Shown here in pieces: positions 10,191 through 44,100 of a DNA stretch of 64,000 bases (the stretch's first letter is position 1; every line of letters starts with the position of its first letter). Where the stretch lies: contig CP136064.1 of NCBI GenBank assembly GCA_032622095.1, forward strand, positions 260,875,863-260,939,862, in the 5' to 3' direction. The notes under the pieces were generated by a model. It saw only the letters and a program-made list of their open reading frames with translations. It searched no databases and was not told the origin of the DNA. The DNA is from Siphonodentalium dalli (lineage: Eukaryota; Mollusca; Scaphopoda; Gadilida; Siphonodentaliidae). A program made the translations under genes and the position numbers.

Positions 10191-10415
10191 ATGGGTGACA
10201 GACATACAGAACACCATGAGCATCAACCTGCGAGAACTCCGATCCAAATCATCCCTCCAGCTGAGTTGGTGTGTCGACCTGCAACAATTCACACCATCAC
10301 TATGTCACAGTCAGGTGACAAACCGATTCGACACCCGACTACTGGCCATATCTTATCGCAAGCAGCTTTATCTCCTCAGCAGACTGAAGTTTTGAAAGCT
10401 TATACAAACAGTCAG
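10191..10415 (+). CDS. SAP130: SAP130 exon 1 (first coding exon found)
   Basis: 75 codons from MGDRHTEHHE to TNSQ, then donor CAG|GTATGT; ends in phase 0. The ATG context is only fair (T at -3, G at +4), and several ATGs lie just upstream. All frames from the nearest good acceptor (10150) hit stops before or near this ATG, so I start here, but the true N-terminus could come from an unrecognised exon. The segment is rich in His, Pro, Gln and Thr, as expected for the SAP130 N-terminal region. Confidence 0.65.
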
Positions 10416-19400: not shown

Positions 19401-22400
19401 ATAATTCATGAAGATATGAAACATATTTTGGGTTGCTAATGTATGAGAAGAGTGGTCACTCAATTGAATTGATCATATTAGATCACAACAGGGGGGAAGA
19501 GTGAAGACATTGTGCAGCTGATCTCAATCTTCAAACTTTGTCGACTTACATAGTTTTTATAAACCCCACTGTAAAACAGTTTTAGTATGTCGTGGTGGGA
19601 TTCCAATTTGAATCCATGTTGCTTCGTGACAGGCCTCAGCCTAGGGGTCCAGAACAGGGAGACTTGAAGTCTCCCTCCAGGAAATTTAGGGAGACTTCAG
19701 GGAGAAGTGGGGAGACTACCAAAAATTGACAATTTTCAAATATCGCTTTATTTTATAACATCTGACAATAAAAATTTTAAAAAGATAAAATAAGAAATAA
19801 AACTAAACAAATTTGACTTGATATGAAATTAGCTTAATTAATTGTTATTATACATTTAAAAATTTTGGAAATGTTTTGTGTAGCTATCATTTAAGCAAGA
19901 CAATTATCAAGTTACAGTAGTAGTGAATTTTTTAACTAAATGAAAGTAGTATTATTTCCTAGACTGCAGCTTGGAAGATACGTTTGTACAGTCTGAATTA
20001 TGATGCATGTAACTTTGTAAGTTTAATTTGGTCACGGCTGTAATGTGGGTGTCCGCTAAAATAAAGAATAAGGACTAACTAACAAAGGAGTTGCAAAAGC
20101 TTTTATTAATTAATGGCCTCCCTTAATTACTGCCAACATCACTGGTATAATCCGATTAAAGCAATAAACTTGACATTATTTTATTTACGGAAGCGGTCTC
20201 TTCAAAAAGTCCGACGAGGTCTCTTCAAAAAGTCTGACGCGTTACCGAAACTTCCGAAGCGCCTGGTACATACTCTGATAATGTCGTAATTCTTTTATAT
20301 CTGAAAAGCGGGACGGCGGTCTTTTAAGTTAATTAAAACATTTATTTGTGACACTCACGATGGTCAGTAACAACACAGATGCGAACATCTCATCGTGTTT
20401 TCAGCGTGTCAAAACATTCGTGATTAACATTCTTTACCGCAAAGGGATCGAACAAAGGCGACTGAATAACAACACAAAACAATAGGTCATATTTTATTTT
20501 TTATTTTAAACACTTGGGTCTTTGTCTCTGCATCGTCGGTTTCTTTTTGGGATGGCCGCCACAATTCATCTATATATGGACATGTCCAGACATGTCCGGA
20601 AAAAAAACTAGAAAAATATTTAAGAAAAACAAAAATTCCCCCTAAAATTGAAGGCGACTTCAATTTTGCCTTAGAGCGACGACAGGGCGAAGTCAGCGAC
20701 AGTAAGGCGACAATCTCGCCCGAGTCGCCTTGTGAGCTGAGGCCTGCTTCGTGCAGTATTAACTATTAAGTTATGAAAGCACGCATTGCCACACAACGTC
20801 ACTTTTACGTTGTCACTTCCTTGTGTGCATTCAGAGTTATCCTTCCTGCATCATTTCTCTGAACGAACTCATCTTTGTGCCAACGGTATATCAATCATTA
20901 CACAGCAATAACAAAGCCGAAGCGTATGACCGACAAACAGGTAGCTGACCTATTTAATCGGCGCTTTGAAGCAGAACGACTTCATCTTGCTTCTTTGCGT
21001 GCCGTTGTAATTAATTATCATTTTCCGGCGTGAATATATGGATTTTAAAGATCGAATAATGGATAATAGATAAACAAAATTGTGTATCGCGGTGCGCGAT
21101 TTTTTGGCTATGGAACCGGTGATATCTCGCACCCCTAGTATTAGACCACATTACTTATCTTGGTTTCCCCTGACCCTATCCAAAATTTCAAGATTGTGTA
21201 GGTTGATAGGTGATCATTTATTTTGTTTAATTGTTAGAATTCACTGGCCGGATGATTAATCCTTTCCCTTAAGAACCATAGGTTGTTTGTAGAACTTATT
21301 ATCTAAACATATCCCTCCAATAAATGGGACACCTTCTGTCCTTCTGTACTTGTATTATCAGTCATGTGCTTATTTTTCATCAAACCCTCTCCAGATGAAT
21401 AATAGACCATTCCATTGTATATTTTTATAACTGAATGGGAAAATCCATTTATCAAAGAAAGGGTTAATGGGAGTTTAATAATGTTTTTGAGATTAAAATT
21501 TTATTTGATCTATTCCTCTACCTGCCATAAATTAAATTATAGACTGTATCTGTCGAGGTATGTTAAAGGTTTTCAATACATTTCAATTATTATGTTCATG
21601 TATTTATCATCTTCATTGAAAATAAAAAAAATATATTCTCTAGGAAGCCAATAAAATACCGGTATTTGATTAGGGATCGTTTTGTTTAGGGAAACAATTT
21701 TGTTTTATTTTGGCCTTAGTTTACTGTTTACAACATAGACTGGCATATTATGATAATGTCAAATTTGTAGCAAACAGCATTTTTGAAACTCTGTACCCAT
21801 TCCCACTGTATCTATCACACTCTATCTATCCCACTCTATCTGAATGTAAGGCCAAATAAATAACACTTTCGTGTTCTCACCCTCCTCCCTTGTCACTCAG
21901 GTATGTTTTCCAGATTTTGAGAAAAAAATAAATAACCACCCTCCCTCATCTCAAAATTTGAGATCTATTTGCCTGAATATCACTCTCAAATTTTTTCAGG
22001 CGCAATAGCTGCAGCTTCAGCCTTGTCAATACCCAAAGCTGGAGCCGCAAATACTGCCACCGCAGTATTACGACCCAGTCAGTCTATCGGATCAGTTCAG
22101 CTGACGTCAGCGGCACACACCCAGTCACCTTTACAGACCACTCTGAACACTACCAAGACTGCAGTTCAGGCTTCTCATAGTGCTTTACAAAGTTCATTAT
22201 CGATGACTCAGACATCACACGGAGCTCATATCCATAGTTCCGCTCCATCCGCATCAATTCTTACTATTCCAAAACCCGCACCCATTGTTCCAGGATCTGC
22301 TGTGTTACGAACCAGCTCCATCCATAATCCAATAGCTACGACAACTCCTATGCCATCTTCTGTGAAGATTGAGACAAACAGAGCGCAGCTGATATCCACA

Positions 22401-25400: not shown

Positions 25401-28400
25401 AAGTGAGAAATCACACAAGATTCACACAAAATTCAATAAATTAGAAAATTCTACCAACATTTATAGCTCACCATTGAAATTAGCTGAAATTGACTGCTTT
25501 TACTTAAAATCTGAAGAAGTATCATTTTATACTATAAATCTAAAGAAAAAAACTAATTTTGGAGGCATCCTCAAAATGGTGGACGACAGATATTCCCATC
25601 TAAGATATTACATGTACATGTATCCACTATCAAACTTTACTTCTATCTATCTGTCCGTAAATTTCTGTCCCATCACTCCTACATGTATATCTTTCTTACT
25701 TTTTCCCCCCACCCCCTCCACTTATATTCTTTTTTTTTATCATTTTGTTTTTAATCACCAATTATTTTTCTCCTTTTATTTTATTTTATTAATTTTCTTA
25801 TTACTCAAATTATGCTGCATGAAATGTATTTCAAAAAAGAAAATCTGAATAGAATTATATTTTGGGACTGATTTCAGTGATTTGAATGCACTTTTCTGTG
25901 ATATAAAACACTCTTTCATCCAAAATAAATCTATAAAAAAAATTATGTTGAGAGCATGGTAAGAATTATAATTGTATTCAAATCTGTTCAAATTGGAATA
26001 AACTAATTTGTTCATACAATTGCTGAAATAAAGAAAGTAGGGTACAGACTATCAAAGGAGCATGCGAGCTGAGTAAACTGTCCATACATGTATTAGGGGA
26101 TTGCACGTCAAAAATGACGGGTCTATAACATTTCATCGGTTTACTGACACAAACGTCATAACTCTATCTTATATCTATCATGCACTTGATGCAGGACATA
26201 AATCACTATAGGGTTATCTTAGTGTTCTCAGTGACACCGTGCTTTTGTATGCTAAAACACTGCCTAAATTTTGTCATCGCGACCCTTGGAAAATGTCCAT
26301 ATATCTCAGACAGTCTTTAACCAATCAGCCTGAAAATTTGTCAGATCTTATGTTCCAAATTTGGGCAACATTGGACGTATGATTGAAGAGTATAAACGTG
26401 CCAAAGTGCAACAGAGTTGCACACACACAGACAGATGATGGGGTTTTATATATATAGATCTCGAGTTAATTTATGTTAAAGGTGATTTCATATTACGTTT
26501 CAGTTGGTATGAATCTGACTACTCACAGCCAGCCTACCAATCTCACGGCACTGAACATGACTGTTCCACCAAAGACAACGGCACCTATTGCTGCTGATAT
26601 CCCAGTCGGTAAGTTACTAATCAGCTTTGATGGCACTAGAGAAATTGTGTCTATATTCCTAGCCTTGAAATAGTATGTCTGACATTTGCAAAATGAGGTC
26701 TCCAGAGGGTGAATTTAGTGATGCTACACTGCACAGCGGGCTAACATCAAATTCAACTTCTGGGCACCTTGTTCTACTTACTGGGAAGTATCTATAGTCT
26801 CAAATTAACATTGTTTTAGTTACTTTTTCTCTTCTGTTCAGTTTCTGTATTCCCTATATTTTTAGTGCAGATGATCTACACAGTAAACTAATAGAAACAA
26901 TTCAAAACCGTATTTCATCTCGAACCATGTTTCTACTACATACAAATTCGGTCAAAGACCATGAACATTTCTGTAGACTTCGAATCAACTGTTGTCTTTC
27001 ATAAGAAATTGAAAAAGTCAGACACAAACGTCTGCTGACGTCAGTCGATGAGCGTTATGCAAAATGTGCAATGTTAACTCAGTGGAAGACGAGAATCATT
27101 TTGTTTTCCACTGTGTCAAATACGACAACTTGAGAAAAAATCTCTTCGAAGAACTAAATAATAAAAGCAATGCATTTCTTGGGCGCGTTTCCGTATACTG
27201 GGAACAATGCAAGGCCTTCACCACCGGTGATCTATAACCTTGCAATTAATTTTTATCTAATAAATTTTCTAGGTTTTAAAGTTATTGCGGTTGATAGCAT
27301 AGTAACTTGGGTAGAAAATGGATGCAAAACGACCAGCAAATCTACTCTCTGATTCTTCTATTGGTTGATACAACAAAAGTAGGTCCACTAGTGTTTCCAC
27401 AACATTGAAAACATTGACTGCATTTTCCCCTCGGCGGATACAGGACCCGTTCCCAAAACCTGGCGGAAAGCCTGTATTGTGTAATGGATAAGGCTCACAT
27501 GAGTGTTTTTATGCTAATAAAATATCAAATATTAACCCTTTCAGTGCCAAGTCCGATTTTTGTATCAACCCATATATCCTTGATCTTTTTCAAATTTATT
27601 GATTATAATAATGTGATACATTGATGGAAAGAGCTTTAAGAGCTCTTTTCTTCAATGTATCACATTATTATAATCAATAAATTTGAAAAATGATCAAGGA
27701 AATATGGGTTGATACAAAAATCAAACTTGGCACTGAAAGGGTTAATACTGCTATCTGATGCAAATATTCTTTCCTCCCACAGCTAAAGTTACTCCCCAGA
27801 GACATCAGCACCCAGCGGCATTACACCCTCAGATTACCACTGTAGTCACGTCGTCTGGGGATGCCTCGCGGACTGAGCTGCCAATTCCTCACACAACACA
27901 ATCATCTCATCCTCCTCTGCCAAGCAACCTGATCGTCACCCAAGCTAATCACGCCCCATCAACCATCGTAATAACTACATCTAATACATCAACAGCTTCT
28001 CAACCGTCTCAGGATTCAAGGTGAGTTGGCCTATATCACCTATATTTTATTTATTTATGTGGATTTACGTCTATTGTTTGTGTTTTTGGTCATAATAAAT
28101 GTATTCACACAAGTTATATATACCAAGAAAGACAAACATGACAGATATTCCTATCCTTCCGCGCTAGCACTCGTGCCGTATCAACAAACCCATTAACCCT
28201 TTACCCAACAAAACGCCCAAAAACGCCCAAATAAAGCTTCAACAGCCTAAAATATCTTTGATCTGTCTCAATAACACCATACAAATATGGATATCATTGG
28301 AACCGGTTCATTGACCACATTGTGATGGTTACAGTTATGCCCTGTGCCAATGCATTCTCTTATATATGCGAGTCGACCAAGGATCGCCTCGCATATATAA

Positions 28401-31400
28401 GAGAATGCATTGGCCTTACATTCTTTAACAATTTTATAATTTGTTCTTACATTTTTTAACAATTTTTATAATATTTTTCTACATTCTTTGACAATTTTAT
28501 CATTTTTAATACATGTTAAGCCAATGCATTCTCTTATATATGCGAGGCGACCTATGGTCGACTCGCATATATAAGAGAATGCATTGGCACAGGGCCGTTC
28601 TGTTGGGTAAAGGGTTAACACACTCATGTCGTTCTTCATATATATTTTGAGAAAGGCCGACTTACAATCCGGGCTCAATTTTCTGAAATTTCTACTTATC
28701 GCAGGCTTGGGAAAGGTACACTAATTTTCTACCTGTCACCTCTGAATTTTGCCTGTATTTACCCTCATATGTGGCATAATATGTATTTGAGACGAGGACA
28801 TTTCAGTTGATTTTATTCTGTATAAAGAATAGTTATAATCTTTACTGCTACAACCAGTATAATACTGTAGTGTGAAGTTTGAGATAAATAAATAGGAATT
28901 TGAGGATAATGTTGCTAAAACTCAGACTAAAGTGCTATCTCAAACTGACACAAGTAGATATTATCTGCAGTCAGAAGCCTGTAGACTTAGTTCACCTGTC
29001 ACTTGTCACCCAGAAAGAGTGGCCTGTCAGTGACAGGTGGGCTGATGTATGCCTCGAGCTCTGTTTACAATTTAAATATGGCAAGAAACGCTGTTTTAAG
29101 TCAACCATGGTAAATTTGTTAAGAAAGGCTGATATATAATTTTAACATGGTATATATACCGCAAGAAGCTGATATATAATTTTAACATGGTATATATACC
29201 ACAAGAAGCTGAAATATAATTTTAACATGGCATATATACCACAAGAAGCTGATATATAATTCTAACATGGCATATATACCACAAGAAGCTGATATATAAT
29301 TTTAACATGGTATATATACCACAAGAAGCTGATATATAATTTTAACATGGTATATATACCACAAGAAGCTGATATATAATTTTAACATGGCATATATACC
29401 ACAAGAAGCTGATATATAATTATACCCCCCGCAACGAAGTTAAGGGGGGATATACTGGAGTCAGCTTGTCCGTCGTCCGTCCATCTGTCCGTGGACACAA
29501 ATTTGTCCAAAGTTTTTCTCAGTCGTTTTTTTTATCAATTTCCATGAAACTTGGCACAGACATCAACCACCATGGGAACCTGTGCACCTGCGATTATGAC
29601 GTCTGTCGGACTTTTTTTGGTGGAGTTATCCCCCCTTTTTCAACTTAGAAATTTTTCGCAACATGTATACTTTTGTCCGAGCTTTTATTCCTACATTTTT
29701 TGGTCTTTTTTTTTAAAACGTGGCACAGCTATTTAGTACCATGAGAACTTGTGCACCTGCGATTATGACGTCTGTCCGACATTTTTTGGTGGAGTTATCC
29801 CCCTTTTTCGACTTAGAAACTTTTTTTACAACATGCATAATTTTGTCCGAGCTTTTATTCCTACATTTTTCGGTCAATGTTTTTTAATCTTGGCACTGTT
29901 ATTTAGTACCATGGGAACCTGTGCACCTGCGATTATGACGTCTGTCCGATATTTTTTGTGTGGAGTTATTCCCCTTTTTCGACTTAGAATTTTTTTCGCA
30001 ACATACATAATTTTGTCCAAGCTTTTATTCCTACATTTTTCGGTCAATAGGTTTAAGATTAGGGTTATGGTTGTACACCTGCAATGGGAACTGTTAATTT
30101 ATTATTTTAACTAAATGTGTACTGACATGTGAAACATCTTAGTATTTTAAAAAACAGGGGGGTATCCGTAGTCCCATTGGGACAGTCACACCTCTAGTTT
30201 TAACATGGTATATATACCACAAGAAGCTGATATATAATTTTAACATGGCATATATACCACAAGAAGCTGATATATAATTCTAACATGGCATATATACCAC
30301 AAGAAGCTGATATATAATTCTTGTTTGTTTATATTTCAACTGAGGCTCATGTGTATTAACCCTTTCATGATGTGATCCGCGCTGGTGCATCATTAAAGAT
30401 CCTGTGCCAGTGCATTCTCTTATATATGCGAGTCTCCCATATGAAGCTCCAGTCATAGAAGAGTTATGTCAACCATTGTAAATTTGTCAAGAAATGCTGA
30501 TATATAACTCTAACATGGTATATATATATCACACGAGGCTGATTCATTATTCTAGTATGTTTATATTTCAACTGAGGATGATGTGTATTAAATGTAAATG
30601 AAAATGTCATTATCTTCATGACAGGATATATCCATGCATGAAGAGACATATTCAATTCTTCAAACAAATAAATGAGATGTTTATTTTTGGTTCATCTATG
30701 CTACCATACTTTAAATAAGACATTTATTTTCATGTCATCTATGTCACCATACATTAAAGGAGATGTTTATTTTCAGATCATCTATGCCACCCTACATTCA
30801 ATGAGACGTTTGTTTTCAGGTCGTATATGCCACCATACATTAAATGAGATGTTTATTTCCCATCCGGTCATCTATGCCACCATACATTTAAATAAATGAG
30901 ATGTTTATTTTCAGGTCATCTATGCCACCATACATTAAACGAGATGTTTGTTTTCAGGTCGTATATGACACCATACATCAAATGAGACATTTGTTTTCAG
31001 GTCATCTATGCCACCATACATTAAATGAGACGTTTGTTTTCAGGTCATCTATGCCACCATACATTAAATGAGACATTTGTTTTCAGGTCATCTATACCAC
31101 CATACATTAAATGAGACATTTGTTTTCAGGTCATCTATGCCACCATACATTAAACGAGACATTTGTTTTCAGGTCTTCTATGCCACCATACATTAAATGA
31201 GACATTTGATTTCAGGTCATCTATGCCACCATACATTAAATGAGACATTTGTTTTCAGGTCATCTATGCCACCATACATTAAACGAGATGTTTGTTTTCA
31301 GGTCATCTATGCCACCCTACATTCAATGAGACGTTTATTTTCAGGTCATCTATGCCACCATACATTAAATGAGATGTTTATTTTCAGGTCATCTATGCCA

Positions 31401-32136
31401 CCATACATTAAACGAGATGTTTGTTTTCAGGTCGTATATGCCACCATACATTAAATGAGACATTTGTTTTCAGGTCATCTATGCCACCATACATTAACTG
31501 AGACGTTTATTTTCAGGTCATCTATGCTACCATACATTAAATGAGATGTTTATTTTCATGCGATCTATGCTACCATACATTAAATGAGATGTTTATTTTC
31601 AGGTCATCTATGCCACCGTACATTGCACCACAAGAACTGTATTATCACTCACTCCAATACGGTAATCTAAATCCACTCGTGTATCAGCAGGTTGTTGGGG
31701 CAGCACAGTCTCGACTGCCAGGACTTGGTATGTACCCTTTAAAGGCATTTATTTAAACTGCTTCAAACTGACATTTTACACTACAAGAATTTAAAGAATA
31801 TAAGGTCAAATAAATACAAATTCTGTGTTCTCAGGCACCTCCATTGTTACATCTTTTTTCAATGTTTTCTATTAAAAATATTGGATTTAAACAAAAAAAC
31901 TAAAAAAAAAATTGTTTCTCTGGAAAGTATATTTATTATCAAATAATTTGTTTTTTTAGTTTCTTTAGAAAGTGTTTCATTTTATTGTTTAGTTAGTTCT
32001 CGTTATCCCCAAATTGGCAGATGGCACAATTCATAATCAAGGTGTCCAATGGGTGCCCATCCCCATCCGGGAACTTAAATCTGAGTCTAGGTATTTCATA
32101 GCAGATGATGCCATGAAGAATGAGGTCCCCACCGAT

Positions 32137-32169
<33 letters not shown>

Positions 32170-35100
32170 GGGTTCAAACCTTGACCGGCTGAAAAAAAAA
32201 TCTGATTTTCAAATTCAAAGGGCCATAACTCTTGAACAAGAAGGTCAGTCTTTTAGATTCCTTCAGATTTGTATTCACTTTCAGAATCGCATGCCCTTTC
32301 AAATGATATATAACACAACATATTCAAATGATTTCAATTGTATCACTGTCTATAAAGTTCGCGGTCTAATGCTGGTCCATTATTATGCCCCCGACTTGAA
32401 GTCGGTGGGTATATAGTCGACGTCTCCGTCCGTCCGAACATTTTGCATTATTGTTCAGCAACCGCTGGGCAGATTTAGCTGATATTTGGTATGGTGATAG
32501 AGCAGCATGGGGGAACAGCTACATGCATAGCGTGGCTTTCGTCCACCAATTTTCACCAGAGTTATGGCCCTTTTTTTACTTAGAAAATTAAATTTTGTCC
32601 GTCCGTACACACATTTTGCATTATTGTTCCGCAACCGCTGGGAGATTAAGCTGATATTTGGTATGGTGATAGAGCAGCATGGGGAACAGCTACATCCACC
32701 CATTTCACCAGAGTTATGGCCCTTTTTTTACTTAGAAAATTCAATTTTTCTCTTGTATTTTGGGTTTCCAGATGATAGCGTGAGCTTTGGTGGTACGATT
32801 GCAAATCCTGTATTTTTGTGGATCAGTTATATGAAAATACATGTCAAGTGCGAATTTGGGTATGATCTGATGATTTTTGCCAGAGTTATGGCCCTTTTTT
32901 CCACTTAGAAAATTTGAATTTTCGCTTGTTTTTGGGTTTCTGCAGTTTCGTCCATGCTTAATCCGAATTGCTATGGTCAGGGGCAAATGCCACGCGACAG
33001 CGTACCTCTTGTTAACATTGGGTGTTCTAAATTACATTCATTCTTTTCTCAGTTACTGGACAGACCACGAATCTTGCAGCGAGCCTAGCCGCTGCACAGA
33101 CCATCGCAGTGCCATCAAGTCAACCAGTCAGATTCAATCATCCCCTTATGGTCACGGTTGACCCATCGCGACCCCTCAATATGCATGGAGGGCAGTACCC
33201 ACATTCAGGAACTAGTACTCCAGACAGTACGTATCTGTTATGAAAGTACCTCATCTTTTCCAATGTAGTTGCACTGTTTTATTGAAGTGTACAACACTGA
33301 TTTGTGAATCAGTCCATGCAAAGTGTGCTGAATAGCTACAGCGCCATATTCCTTATTCCAAGTTTCCTTTGATGTAAACCAGCCAGTGAAATCTGTTGGG
33401 ATAATGCTGTTTTACATAGAAATTCTGTGTATATATCTTTCTATATCAGGTTTTAGCATTGTTAACATGCTCACCTAAAATAAATGTCACAATTATTCCT
33501 TAGAAAATATAATATTTTTTCTGAACTCCACACGAGATGGCAACTGTAAGTAGTAATGAAATGTGTGACATATATTTTATCACAATGTTTATAAGCATAC
33601 AAACTCATTTGAACTCGCGACGTGACAGTGTGTATTAAATGTAAACAAACTGAGATTACTCCTAATTACGCTGCATATTATAATCGTAATTCAACATGAA
33701 AGTTAGATAATAATTCATCATTATAAGCTCACACCCTCTACATTCACACATAGCTCGTGGGAATCAGAATTTGAGCAATATGTTACTTACAATTGTTTTG
33801 GTTGTTTTAAAAAGTTGTTCAAATGATTAATGTTCTATTAAAATGTACTGGTATATGATTATAAGGAATGACCTTGCAGATCGATTGGGGTCATTGGTTT
33901 GGACGGGAGGAGTCAAAATCTGCCGATGTCACTTCACTCTTTCTGATATATATAAGCATATGTATAGATTTTTAGGGTAAAATCGATTAAAATTGACGAA
34001 AAATCTGGTCATTGGTTCTGGGCGTAAAGTCTGCTATAGAAAGATATATACATGGGACATCGTCATATCGACGTAAAACAGCATTATCCCAACAGATTTC
34101 ACCGGCTGGTTTATGTCGAAGGAAACTTAGACTACATACTCCTCAATAAAACGCAGCACTACAACATTCATTCCTTATATTTATGGAGCTTCTTGATCAT
34201 TATTCTCATGAAATTAGCTGGAATAGTTTATAATTTTTTTATGAAACCTAGAGTTGAAACGACTAGGGTATTTCGTAGTCAAACAATCGACAGTCACAAA
34301 TCGAGTCCAAGTCGACTAATCGACAACCCCCATTCCCATGGAAAACTTCCATTTTACTATGTGGCTAATGAGTACTGTAAAATCACTCCAATATAACTGC
34401 TGTAAACGAGTTCACATTTTTCATGGGTGTTACGATCGGAAGAAGAAACTGGTGGCCGATGCTACTAAATTTGTATACATCCAGTAATTAATATCAGGAG
34501 TCTTGGCAAAGTTGGCTTGCACTTCACTGTAGGTTAGCGTTGTATTATGACACATTCATCATACCATATCCAGACACATAAGTCCATACTCATACTGAAT
34601 TAATTACACGCATAGTGACAGAGAATACACAATCAACGTATTGGTATATTTATTGTATTCAATAAGAACTTCAAAGCGTGGCTGCCGATACAGTTATCTT
34701 TGATCGGCCATCGTGCAACGATGTTTATTTATTAGTGACATTGTCAATTTCATAACTGGTGTTTGTGTATGTAATTCTACTAAATAGCACGGCTTTTGTT
34801 TTGACTTTTAACATTGTCCTTGCCGTTGTTGGTATATTGTATTGTACCATTGTTCTGTTAAGACACAGTGCATCGACTTTTGGTGAACAATTCATCGACA
34901 TAAACTAATCGACAAATCGTTTCAACACAACTGAAACCTGTCCCAGGTTTGGAAATAAACTCACCGGGGACCGCAAGTTGGCCCAATATTAAATTAATTC
35001 TACTTGTGAATTATCGATCAATTTATGTGTCTCATACTGGTTCTTTTATGGTGACCACAAGTTAGCCCAATATTAAATTAATTCTACTTTTGAATTATTG

Positions 35101-38100: not shown

Positions 38101-41100
38101 TGTTGATATATTCTGTTGACATGTAATTTTAAGGAATACTCTCTGTTTCCAAATATGATTAAGTTTAAGAAATTTTCTTCACAACAAACTTTAGTTTGTG
38201 ATTAGCCAAATGTCTTTAACCCTTCCATGACTGGAGCTTCCTGATATTTTGCGAAAATCCTGTGCCAATGCATTCTCTTATATATGTGAGTCTCCCATAG
38301 GGAACCTATCATATACAAGAGAATACATTGTCCTAACATTATATACTTTGACCTTGTAAGCCAGTGCATCCTCTTATATATATGAGGCTCCCTATGGGAG
38401 ACACATATACCTGAAAGGTACTACTTTCTCTGCAATAGCATCACCACATTTACCCTTCTCCTTAATGTTACACATATCTGCTGCACACAAAACCATAAAT
38501 AGCAACATTGTGTGAATGGTCAATGCTGAGATAATAGCTTTAAATGCTGATCACCTGATATTTAGCACAAGTCGTGGGTGGTATTGCTAAGATAATTTTC
38601 AGACAAGATACTGAAAACGAATATTGTGCATCGCGTGATAGCATATGCAGTTGTAAAGTGCTGACAGAAGTAATTCGAACAAAACTGTCTACTTGAGAAA
38701 CCGGTTTGGTAGCAGCATGAAAATTAGTCATACATAAATTTTATGATATACCGTCTCCTTGATCTAGTGGGATGGGGTGCTATTCCATTGAAGAGATGAG
38801 TGTTTCTCTACAGTATAATAAGCATTGCGACTTGCGTACATGGTTTATCATCATGGAGAATGTTGGAAATTCTTGAAATGTAACTAGTATTTATACTGCA
38901 AAGGTATGCACTTCAGTTTCTGTGTCACATTCAATAATTAATCATCATGCTGAACGAAACTATCACGTACTGTGTGGTGAACATTACTTTGTGTGTTGAA
39001 TACCCAAAATTATTATTTTTCACCCAGCTATTCTAAGCAGAAAACCATGAACTTTTAAAGAGGTAAATCATTGGGTTTAACTTGCGTTGCAGTGACCGGT
39101 AAATCCTTCAGATGGATCTGTTTTAATGATATGTGTACCTTTAAGGATATTTAACAAGAGACTTGTATATTACCAATAAAGCTAGCAATGGTTGATTTGT
39201 TTTCCAGGGACAATAGTCAGCCCTTTAGAGATAGTGTCCTGTTTGCCAAAGCTAACTTAATGTTTTTTTTTTCAGGGACAATAGTCAGTCCTCTACAGAC
39301 ACCGCCCTGTCTGCTGAAGCTAACACACCGACCCCGACGCATAATAACGCTACGGATATGAGGATAAAACAAGAACCCCCAGACCTACTGGAGAATGGTA
39401 TGAGTGAAAAAAAAAATTCTATATATTGTACTATAGCAAATAATGTTTTGAGCTGCTCAAGTATGGAACGTTATTAACTCTGTCTTTACTAAATACTCAT
39501 TGATGAGTAGTTCCATTAGGAAATGTTCAGATAATAAGTTAATAAGTTCAGCAAACAACCAATGAATATGAATCCTTCTGAACCTCTATTATCTTTGAGT
39601 ATATCTGTTGTCTGCTCATTTTTCCTGATTACCCCTCCAAATGAATAATAGATCAATCCAATGTATATTTTTTATAACTGAATAGGAGAATCCATTCAGT
39701 ATAGAAAGGTTTAATAATGAAAATATTAATATCTAGCTAGGTGAATATATAAATTACTTTCTTTATTTGATTAATATGTGATATATTTATGATATATTAC
39801 TTTACCATTAGTTTTGTGCGCTTTATGATTTGTAATCATCTAAAATTATCCGTGTCATAAATTTCAGGCATTCCCACAACACCTACTCATAGTAACAGTA
39901 TAGAAGCTTCTCTGAGCACGATAAACTAAAACGATCCATGTTATAAATTTCAGGCATTCCCACAACACCTACTCATAGTAACAGCATAGAAGCTTCTCCG
40001 AGGAAGAAACCAAGGAAACAACTTCTGTGAGTTTGTTTGTTATTATCCAAACTGTCGGTCTGTCTGTCCTTTGTGAGTTTTTTTCAGTAGTCGAATGGTT
40101 TGTACACAAGAGTTGTTTTATATCATGTGAAACTCCTGTTTCATAATGAAAAATGTCCAATGTAAAGAATCTAATTCAACAGTATTTTTGAATATGTTGT
40201 AACATCAAATGCATTAATAATAACTAGGAATAATGCATTAATAATAACTAGGAATAATATTTGTTTCCTTCATTTGATTTATAAATAAATTTCTTTTGAG
40301 TTAAAAATATTTCAGTGTTTTATATAAACCAAATACTGTGCAATATCCACATTTCAGCAAAAATATGAACATGAAAATTCATTGCGTGTTTGTGTTTTGG
40401 ATAATAATTTATCTAGAACTTTTTATAATCTTGTCAAAGTGTGGCTAAATTCCTTCTCCTAGTATTCTAAATATTCTCTTTTACCCTGAAGTAATTCTCT
40501 TTAAAAACAAAATAATATATGACATGTGGGTGTAATTTAGTTGTTGTTCAAGGCTGTATCTAACCATAACATTTATTTGTGACTAATTTTCCAATAGTCT
40601 CTAGACTAGTTCACAAAACGTGCCATTGTAAGTGTGTTAACCATTTATATACTAAATACTCATTGACAAGTAGTTATGCCTTAGGAAATTTTCTGATAAT
40701 TAGTCAACAAACTTCACATAGGTTGTTTGTTGAACTTATTATCCGAACATTTCCCACCAATCAATAGGATTCCTTCTGCACTTTCTATTGTCTGCTCATA
40801 ATTCCTGATCATCCCTCCAAATAATATAATAGACCATTCCAATATACACTGTTATAACTGTTAGGAGAATCCATTCAGAGTAAGAAGGGTTAGTGGAGAC
40901 GACCATGATTGAGTATTCTGAGGAATTGACGTTTTGTTAAAATTCATCATTAACAGACATGCTAATGAAGACTTGAAAGACAACTCCTCAAGTGATGAAG
41001 AACTTAATAAATTAACAGACTTCAAACAAGAGAGACTGAAGAGTATCAAGAGAGAAATCCGAGATGGTAAATTTCTACGTTTTATTATTTATTAAATGAT

Positions 41101-44100
41101 CCGATCCTTATTCTGATCATTAAACCCATTCTATAATAATGATATGCAACGGTCATTGAAACAGTGTCAGGTTAACCCAAATGTATTATTGTTGTGCAAA
41201 TGTGATTCGGACTCCGGGATGAGGAATGAAGAAGAATCGGTGTCTGTGACTGATATTGATATAGATATATTTACATACTAAGTGTTGTCATCACTAAATC
41301 CAGCATTCTCATTGGTCGGCGCCCACGTGGCTAGTTGCAGTTATTTCTCGGTGAATGCGCAACGGCTCATAACACCAAGCTCATAACACCATCGATACGT
41401 CATGGGTTTGGAAAGACGAACGCGTAATGTTTTGGGCAAATTTGGACTCGCGCAGGATTGACTTAATACATCATCGGGTTTCAATATGAAGAGAAATTGT
41501 TCCTATTAACTTTTGCCAAGGGTGCTATTGGGTATTTTGGGCTGTTTTTGTCACGATACACTTTTCGATTTAAATACATTTACAAAAGTGGCTTTTTCGT
41601 TAAATGTATATAAATATAAGGATTAACTGTCATGTGGACTATTTTTATGGAGATGTAACCGTGAGGTAAGTGGTCATAACTTGTATGTAAAACCCTTTGG
41701 GTTTTACACAAGTTATGTCCACTTACCTCATGGTTACATCTCCATAAAAACAGTCCACATGACAGTTAATCCTTATTTAAAATTTATTTTATTAAATTTA
41801 CACCATTAAATACGTCAAAGAGTCTTTATTTATCTAGGGATGTGGGCAAACAACGAATAGTTAAGTGAAACTTCATCACATGTTATAGAAGCCGCTGTTA
41901 GTTTCACGTCCCATTTAATGATTTAAGTATGTTTTATGGAGGTTTTGGATCAGGAAATAAATAGAATCTACAATTCGTCCCCATTTTATAGATCAATTTA
42001 CAAAACTTGTCCAGTAAATTAGATCTGGCCCTTGCCACAAAGGCTTGGTCCAGACCTAATTTACTGGACTCGTTTTGTAAATTTCGATATAAACTGGGGA
42101 CGAAATGTAGATCATCTATACATGACTTGTTAGTCGACTTATGGTTTGGCGAGGGACGGTTGGCGGGCGGGCGGGCGGACCTAAAGAATGCCTTATAACT
42201 TGGACATTTTTTTTTTTATGGCGGCAGTTCCCAATAACTATTTACTGCCTGTAGAAAATGGATCACGTCCGAACTTTTTTACAAGAGTTATCCATCTTAG
42301 ATGGTTTTTAGTTAAGTTTTTCACCGATAGCGCGATAACTCACGCAAATATTAACCAATTTCAACAATATTTGGTATATGAGACTCTTGCAACAATATCT
42401 CGGACGAGTTCGAAAACCAAGTTTGTCCGAATTTTATTCCGGAGTTATGGGTCTTAGTTTGTCTATTTTTACCAATTTTATCACCGTTAGCGCGAAAACT
42501 CGATGAAATATCAACCAATTTCAACAATATTTGGTATATGAGTCTCCTGCAACAATATCTCGGACGAGTTCGAAAACCAGGTTTGTCCGAATTTTCGCGG
42601 AGTTATGGGTCTTAGTTTGTCTATTTTTTTTCTCATTGAAATGCCACTATAGTTTCATGATCTTTTCAAGACCTTCGGAAAAGCTACATCTAACTAGATT
42701 GTTCACTTGGTCTAAATTATTTCTTTTTGACTTTCCATACAGAGTATGTTGATGATGATGGAGTGCGGTGGACCTTGGAGAAGAAGAGGCCGTCTGTGAC
42801 ATTCTTAATGAACTTCTATAACATAAACTGGAAATCACGCAATAATCACTACGTGAAGCACACGGACATCAAACTCAAAGGTACAATTCTTCTCAGTACA
42901 GGCCATGTTCAGGAGTGAGCGGATGTTTCAGGAATACAATTGTTTTAAACACCTGAGATTCCAAGAGAAATCCTCTATTCAATGCATAAGTTTGCACTCC
43001 AAAATACACGTAATAATATTCGCTTTTGAATTTGCCAGTATCAAAATAGGCCATAATTACCTGAGCTACTTTCGACGAGCATTAAATGTCACAGAAAGAT
43101 GCAGTGAACACAAAAATTGGACCCTGAGCAAATACTGCACCATTAGTATTCATTAAAACATCATGCACTGCTTTCTCTTCAATTTAATTATAAAAATTAA
43201 GTAGAACCATAAACGTTACAGAGCAAGCCTTGAAATAGGGTGTCTGTCATTTGCAGAATGAGGTCCCCAGAGGGTGAATTTGGTGATGCTAGCCCGCTAT
43301 ACGGGGTAGCATCACTAAATTCACCCTCTGGGGACCTCATTCTGCAAATGACAGACACCCTATTTCAAGGCTTGTTACAGAGTGAAAAAAGATGCAGTGA
43401 ACACAAAAATTGGACCCTGAGCAAATACTGCACCATTAGTATTCGTTAAAACATCATGCACTGCTTTCTCTTCATTTTAATCATAACAATTAAGTATTAC
43501 CATAAACGTTACAGAGTGAAGACAGCTCTAGCTTTTCTTCCCAATGTCTACAGGTGCAATTTTAATGTGACTTTTGATAAACTATTTGAAAAAAAATTAC
43601 CGAAAAATAGAAGAAACAGAACATGTATTTACAGTGGTATATCGATTATATTTACAGTCGATTAATTTGTTTTGTTATCTTCTGCATCAGGATGTTTTGC
43701 AATACCTCTTACCAAACTATGTACACATAATTTTGGGATTCATATTCATGCCCAAAGTAGGGCCCGACGAATCAGCAATTTCAACATCGAAATTGAATTG
43801 AATCTCGAATCGAATCTTTTTTAAACACTTTAGTTAATTCGCGGTACCGATCAGTGGGAGGTACAAGCAAAAATGTCAGATGATTCTATAACGTCAGTGA
43901 GACAACTCAGATTACGAGGAGGTTCATTGAACTTAATTTCTATGACATGATATGAACAATATTTAATCAGAGTTTAAAACAGTTTAATATATTTTGTGCC
44001 ACTGCCACTATGCGTGAAAAGTAAGCAGTTTGGAACTTTAAAGTCAATGGAGTCCGATTCGAGTCATTGCAAACGGAAACTCTTCTGTGCATGTACGCTT

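Follow-up and report, generated by a model that had tools for sequence, protein, structure and literature searches.

A 43-bp minisatellite across a splice acceptor of SAP130 in the scaphopod Siphonodentalium dalli resembles the mirages of amphioxus genes

One exon of the SAP130 gene of Siphonodentalium dalli is preceded by a long row of tandem copies of its own acceptor, most of which retain the splice signal and all of which lead to a premature stop. Based on the sequence, this array is probably a boundary minisatellite of the kind described as a "mirage" in amphioxus, which would be close to neutral and in which the exon-proximal acceptor would win. The original prediction had offered two possibilities, a cassette tuning SAP130 output or a slippage product which the splicing machinery must ignore. 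The second is supported by the detection of the array solely at its exon and the near-identical counterpart of this exon, by shared edges and a shuffled interior in two versions of the locus, by a freely varying AG and by boundary repeats in other genes, whose frequency is close to background. We analysed a stretch of 64,000 nt (the window, to which positions refer unless a contig is given) and compared it with a second arm and with a survey of other genes.

The gene was identified as SAP130, which encodes a Sin3/HDAC subunit, by two matches to Pfam PF16014 (SAP130_C), one of 40.9 bits at 52762-52869 and one of 29 bits at 42739-42936 (cut-off 27). After low-scoring calls had been set aside, the ab initio exon chain on the plus strand runs from 10261 to 51596; two low-scoring calls before 10261 and three others, at 20675, at 29014 and beyond 59000, were discarded as spurious. 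The array lies in an intron of 3.6 kb, between the exons ending at 28020 and starting at 31603. The features are as follows, with a slash at the splice boundary:

27783-28020, plus strand: upstream SAP130 exon (ab initio model), ending in AAG/GTGAGT and leaving 2 nt for a split codon
30669-31624, plus strand: 43-bp splice-acceptor minisatellite of 22 units, namely 21 upstream decoys and the unit of the real acceptor (Tandem Repeats Finder and unit-by-unit reading)
30691-31602, plus strand: the 21 decoy units, from the exon-like part of the first; AG kept in 17/21, AG/GT in 16/21, premature stop in 21/21
31539-31581, plus strand: decoy unit nearest to the real acceptor, AG lost (CAT/GCG, by unit reading); the two nearest units are likewise dead in the other arm
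31603-31727, plus strand: real SAP130 exon (ab initio model), phase 1 start, donor TTG/GTATGT
52762-52869, plus strand: C-terminal SAP130 exon segment (Pfam PF16014 match)

The real exon had been called exon 8 in the original prediction, which holds if counting starts at the modelled exon at 10261; the number shifts if a further first exon exists.

Tandem Repeats Finder reported the array at 30669-31624 with a period of 43, 22.0 copies, 88% matches and a score of 1362, far above chance. Each unit consists of the final 21 nt of the intron and the initial 22 nt of the SAP130 exon, so that all 22 copies span an intron end and an exon start. The claims that a 43-bp unit repeats the real acceptor together with the first exon bases, and that the true exon is entered from the last copy only, were thus borne out: the exon opening at 31603 is reached from the 22nd unit alone. 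The spacing departs from 43 bp at unit 5 (47 bp) and unit 6 (48 bp). About 21 acceptors had been predicted, and there are indeed 21 units upstream of the real one; the AG is missing in four of them (units 1, 2, 5 and 21), which leaves 17 acceptor-like decoys.

Locally, most of these decoys look like the real site. The AG/GT expected of a dual-specific splice site is found in 16 decoys and in the real site, while unit 3 keeps its AG but reads AG/AT. With a simple acceptor matrix, whose values, like those of the donor matrix, are approximate, 14 of the 17 live decoys scored 2.9-3.3 and the other three -0.3, 1.5 and 2.6, as compared to 3.3 for the real site. The decoy units at 30915 and 31388 each differ from the real site at a single one of the 43 positions. 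When the split codon is begun with the 2 nt contributed by the upstream exon, each of the 21 decoys meets a stop codon, in 15 cases at codon index 9 (SSMPPYIK followed by TGA, or a close variant) and in the remaining six at 8, 22, 22, 52, 55 and 65. This agrees with the earlier reading of most units as SSMPPYIK-TGA and with the suggestion that decoy use would give a truncated product or a target of nonsense-mediated decay.

How such an array might arise and be tolerated can be proposed from its structure. A single tandem duplication of the last 21 nt of the intron and the first 22 nt of the exon would have been followed by unequal exchange or slippage, by which the copies were multiplied and shuffled; this origin is read directly from the unit structure and the edges common to both arms (see below). 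The spliceosome would normally join the last, exon-proximal acceptor. At an intron length of 3.6 kb, exon definition is to be expected, and this should prefer the acceptor giving the shortest exon with the downstream donor. The exon is 125 nt long with the last acceptor and would be 211 to 951 nt long with the live decoys. The dead nearest decoys, located 43 nt from the real acceptor in the window and both 43 and 86 nt from it in the other arm, would ease this choice; the nearest live decoy would give an exon of 211 nt in the window arm and of 254 nt in the other arm. Decoy use would then be rare, or its products would be removed by nonsense-mediated decay, and in either case the array should be close to selectively neutral.

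Three points weigh against this interpretation. First, the local sequence offers no reason for the choice, since 14 of 17 live decoys score close to the real site. A role of RNA structure in hiding the decoys found no support in a fold of 300 nt (31431-31730), for which z was +0.80 and 155 of 200 shuffles were equally or more stable. Second, the death of the nearest decoy or decoys in both arms may point to selection acting on close decoys, in which case neutrality would be incomplete; decay at the array edge accounts for it as well. Third, the test of neutrality by the survey described below is weak, with 234 junctions, an interval of 2.3-7.7% and donors at 9/116 (p = 0.044 uncorrected against a background of 3.8%, p = 0.21 against 5.3%).

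A genome search, which passes over words very common in the genome, matched the array at the two SAP130 arms only and nowhere outside them, which indicates a local origin and rules out a dispersed satellite or a mobile element. The second array, of 36 units, is found at one place, in an inverted, near-identical arm approximately 300 kb away. The arms correspond to C4 about 260560267-260642712 (minus strand) and about 260865863-260944064 (plus strand), and both carry a modelled SAP130 gene. Away from repeats, their identity is mostly ~96-99%, broken by insertions. In the other arm the array has 35 upstream units, of which 27 carry AG and all 35 meet a stop. The 58 units of both arms fall into 34 types. 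Units at the edges are common to both arms and in the same order: on the left A, B, then C or S, D, E and F, and on the right Q followed by the real unit; in the latter, a single base is changed between the arms. The interiors differ, the E-F block being present three times in the other arm. Edges in the same order together with a differing interior (22 versus 36 units) are the usual signature of minisatellite turnover. Within the arrays, the two positions of the AG carry 3 minor alleles against 43 at the 43 unit positions, both counts being inflated by insertion-bearing units. The AG dinucleotide shows no special constraint within the arrays, being no less variable than the unit positions on average.

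We compared 15 of the 17 modelled exon stretches between the arms, the first two lying outside the fetched arm, and found no gaps and 10 base differences, by which 8 codons are changed synonymously and 2 non-synonymously. None of the differences falls in exon 8, and coding is intact in both arms over these stretches. The match is present at both sampled ends of the window, patchier on the right, and also ~10 kb further inward. Outward it stops one base before a gap of 100 N at C4:260944065; beyond this gap only short, repeat-like matches were detected in the 5.7 kb fetched. CCT genes are known as single-copy genes in animals. In this assembly, CCT gene segments are doubled nearby, with equal or near-equal scores, at C7 133.43/133.49 Mb, C1 54.10/54.27 Mb, C1 68.37/68.54 Mb and C8 26.61/26.65 Mb, and at C4:274.2-275.5 Mb eleven matches to one myosin-head segment form a single cluster. 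The doubled CCT segments and the myosin cluster are either retained haplotypes or recent duplications. Because the match ends at the 100-N gap and CCT genes are also doubled nearby, the two SAP130 arms are probably two haplotypes placed side by side; the alternative is a recent inverted duplication. The arms, near-identical and probably haplotypes, carry 22 and 36 units, which lends support to the expectation that copy number varies between individuals.

Two more acceptors in the SAP130 gene are duplicated:

39193-39324, plus strand: second acceptor duplication, a 68-bp unit × 1.9 across the acceptor of the exon at 39276; also × 1.9 in the other arm
39835-40006, plus strand: third acceptor duplication, an 86-bp unit × 2 across the acceptor of the exon at 39954; the other arm has one unit

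A decoy acceptor was therefore gained or lost between the arms at the 86-bp duplication.

The frequency of such arrangements elsewhere was estimated from 120 exon loci of kinesin (60 of 123 matches), CCT (40 of 53) and SNF2 (20 of 73) genes. The kinesin set comprises the first 66 rows minus five near-identical copies and one other, and the SNF2 set the first 27 rows with seven removed, most of them long or interrupted by stops. The CCT set omits two very long matches, nine near-identical copies and the last two rows. The survey is confined to these three families, and the 85 myosin matches listed are outside the sample. Junctions were called from DNA alone with the simple approximate matrix and counted when an array covers at least 8 nt on either side. 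Since 2 acceptors and 4 donors were uncallable, 118 acceptors and 116 donors remained. Kinesin loci were retrieved with flanks of 450/200 nt and CCT and SNF2 loci with flanks of 400/400 nt, and long arrays are cut for this reason. Tandem arrays cover 2 of the 118 acceptors and 8 of the 116 donors, in total 10/234 or 4.3% (interval 2.3-7.7%). At L069 the script had called the donor wrongly; added by eye as the ninth, it brings the totals to 11 junctions and 9/116 donors. Read by eye, the 11 arrays are copies of exon ends or starts, with up to about 7 units:

Donor arrays in kinesin, CCT and SNF2 genes: L039 (60 bp × 3.1), L042, L057 (30 bp × 7.5), L059 (34 bp × 6.8), L065, L069, L084 (63 bp × 1.9), L087 and L094
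Acceptor arrays in the same genes: L128 (127 bp × 3.8), which already looked duplicated in the match table before its retrieval, and L129 (decoy without AG)

A 69-bp array at L057 ends just at the acceptor and was not counted, and in the donor array of L087 an intermediate unit lacks the GT. Intron positions lie in arrays in 5.3% of cases, or in 3.8% without the boundary arrays, and exon interiors in 2.1%, including boundary arrays reaching into exons. Neither enrichment nor depletion at the junctions is clear from 10 of 234 (11 with L069), and since 4.3% is close to 3.8-5.3%, junctions seem to be struck about as often as other intron positions. A process directed at junctions is not clear in SAP130 either, where arrays cover three of the 16 acceptors and none of the 16 donors as compared to 11.3% of intron positions. 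The excess of donors over acceptors (8/116 versus 2/118, Fisher p = 0.058) is suggestive only, and SAP130 leans in the opposite direction. No frame rule was seen for the decoys of the donor arrays: in the nearest decoy of the nine arrays the frame is kept in 5/9, and a stop arises in 3/9. The survey rate near background is the strongest evidence for tolerance of boundary repeats, in a small sample from three families with donors maybe slightly above background.

The presence of AG/GT in 16 of 21 decoys allows for a different function. Joining to a decoy regenerates a donor (AAG/GTCATC), and from there splicing could proceed to the next or the last unit until the normal mRNA is obtained stepwise, as a self-correcting ratchet of tandem dual-specific or recursive sites. 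In the polyubiquitin gene UBC, tandem AGGT sites are reported to serve as acceptor and as donor (excerpts of PMC10809524). By the approximate donor matrix, the regenerated donor reaches at most 3.5 in the window arm and the donor of the real exon 5.8, and GTCATC is without the usual purine at +3 and G at +5. Moreover, the four other acceptor mirages seen read AG/GG, AG/GC, AG/GG and AG/GA, none AG/GT, which argues against a general rule. We consider stepwise splicing quite unlikely. It is similarly improbable that both hold, i.e. that junction minisatellites are a genome-wide, tolerated class (approximately 1 in 20 junctions) and that SAP130 is an extreme case in which AG/GT decoys work stepwise, giving dozens of near-equal acceptors and one mRNA.

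The decoys could also be poison acceptors, used at a set rate and giving nonsense transcripts, so that the array length would tune SAP130 output. The retained AG, the stop in every decoy and the scores about like that of the real site in 14 of 17 are in line with this proposal, which was part of the original prediction. However, chance would be expected to place stops in an AT-rich unit with a length not divisible by 3, the decoy AG shows no special conservation in the arrays, the arms, about 97-99% alike to both sides of the repeats, differ by 14 units in length, and similar arrays exist at unrelated genes. Thus, we found no support for such a cassette and regard it as very improbable. Although the assembly seems to keep both haplotypes in places and is hence imperfect, it is hardly credible that the units were invented or miscounted by the assembler, a possibility raised in the original prediction, since the units differ mutually (34 types among 58), the second arm has the array too, with similar edge units, and two further duplications exist in the SAP130 gene.

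The interpretation as a mirage has precedents. In the excerpts of PMC3087553 and PMC3902484, mirages of amphioxus are minisatellite-like tandem duplications across an intron/exon boundary, acceptor or donor, in which many decoys keep splice signals; they are described for Adh3, troponin C and the globins BflGb6 and BflGb9, with similar imperfect repeats in PGBD5. The BflGb6 units are 81-100% alike and number 6 versus 3 in two haplotypes. According to the same excerpts, RT-PCR and the Adh3 data suggested that regular splicing is undisturbed, and somatic instability of the Adh3 mirage is cited in PMC3087553. As far as these excerpts go, the SAP130 array shares the boundary-spanning tandem units and the decoys keeping splice signals, and a length difference between haplotypes is probably shared as well. 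It is longer (22 and 36 units) and was analysed as DNA, while in amphioxus splicing was examined. From what is given in the excerpts of PMC10809524, UBC resembles it as a tandem repeat with AG/GT in most units, but the UBC units are coding and their use leads to a variable number of monomers, while those of SAP130 lie in an intron, contain in-frame stops and have a weak donor side. A potato RdRp case of intron gain by tandem genomic duplication, as excerpted from PMC4974935, is likewise a local duplication within a gene tied to splice sites; in SAP130, however, an existing acceptor was multiplied and a new intron was not made. Among open-licence papers, boundary minisatellites were found for amphioxus only, and none for molluscs or bivalves. 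The SAP130 array is a long example of the known mirage type, in a genome where such arrays seem common.

Thus, the array looks like a tolerated by-product of repeat growth at the DNA level, not like a purpose-built switch. Its value lies in being a natural test of how cells choose the correct splice site. The two decoys with 42/43 identity to the true acceptor are located 215 nt (31388) and 688 nt (30915) upstream of it, and distance and exon context must discriminate the true acceptor from them. The two natural SAP130 versions, with 21 and 35 decoys, and the arrays at donors and acceptors of kinesin, CCT and SNF2 genes amount to a natural experiment on exon definition and first-AG rules. Further, boundary minisatellites at approximately 5% of the sampled junctions would continually supply alternative splice sites and new introns.

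Other repeats were seen in the SAP130 gene. A 37-bp array at 50629-51443, with 22 units in the window and 11 in the other arm, contains CATTCAGGATGA in most units; it ends ~30 nt before the SAP130 exon at 51474 and places a row of AGs just upstream of it. Exon sequence is absent from its unit, and it was not counted as a mirage. The array-bearing intron also harbours 40-bp arrays at 29128-29421 and 30198-30319, the first of which seems longer in the other arm. They have the short stretch ACCACAAGAA in common with exon 8, which is probably due to chance. Finally, a G run of 36 bp (32137-32172, ~94% G) is a likely hot spot of sequencing error or polymorphism.
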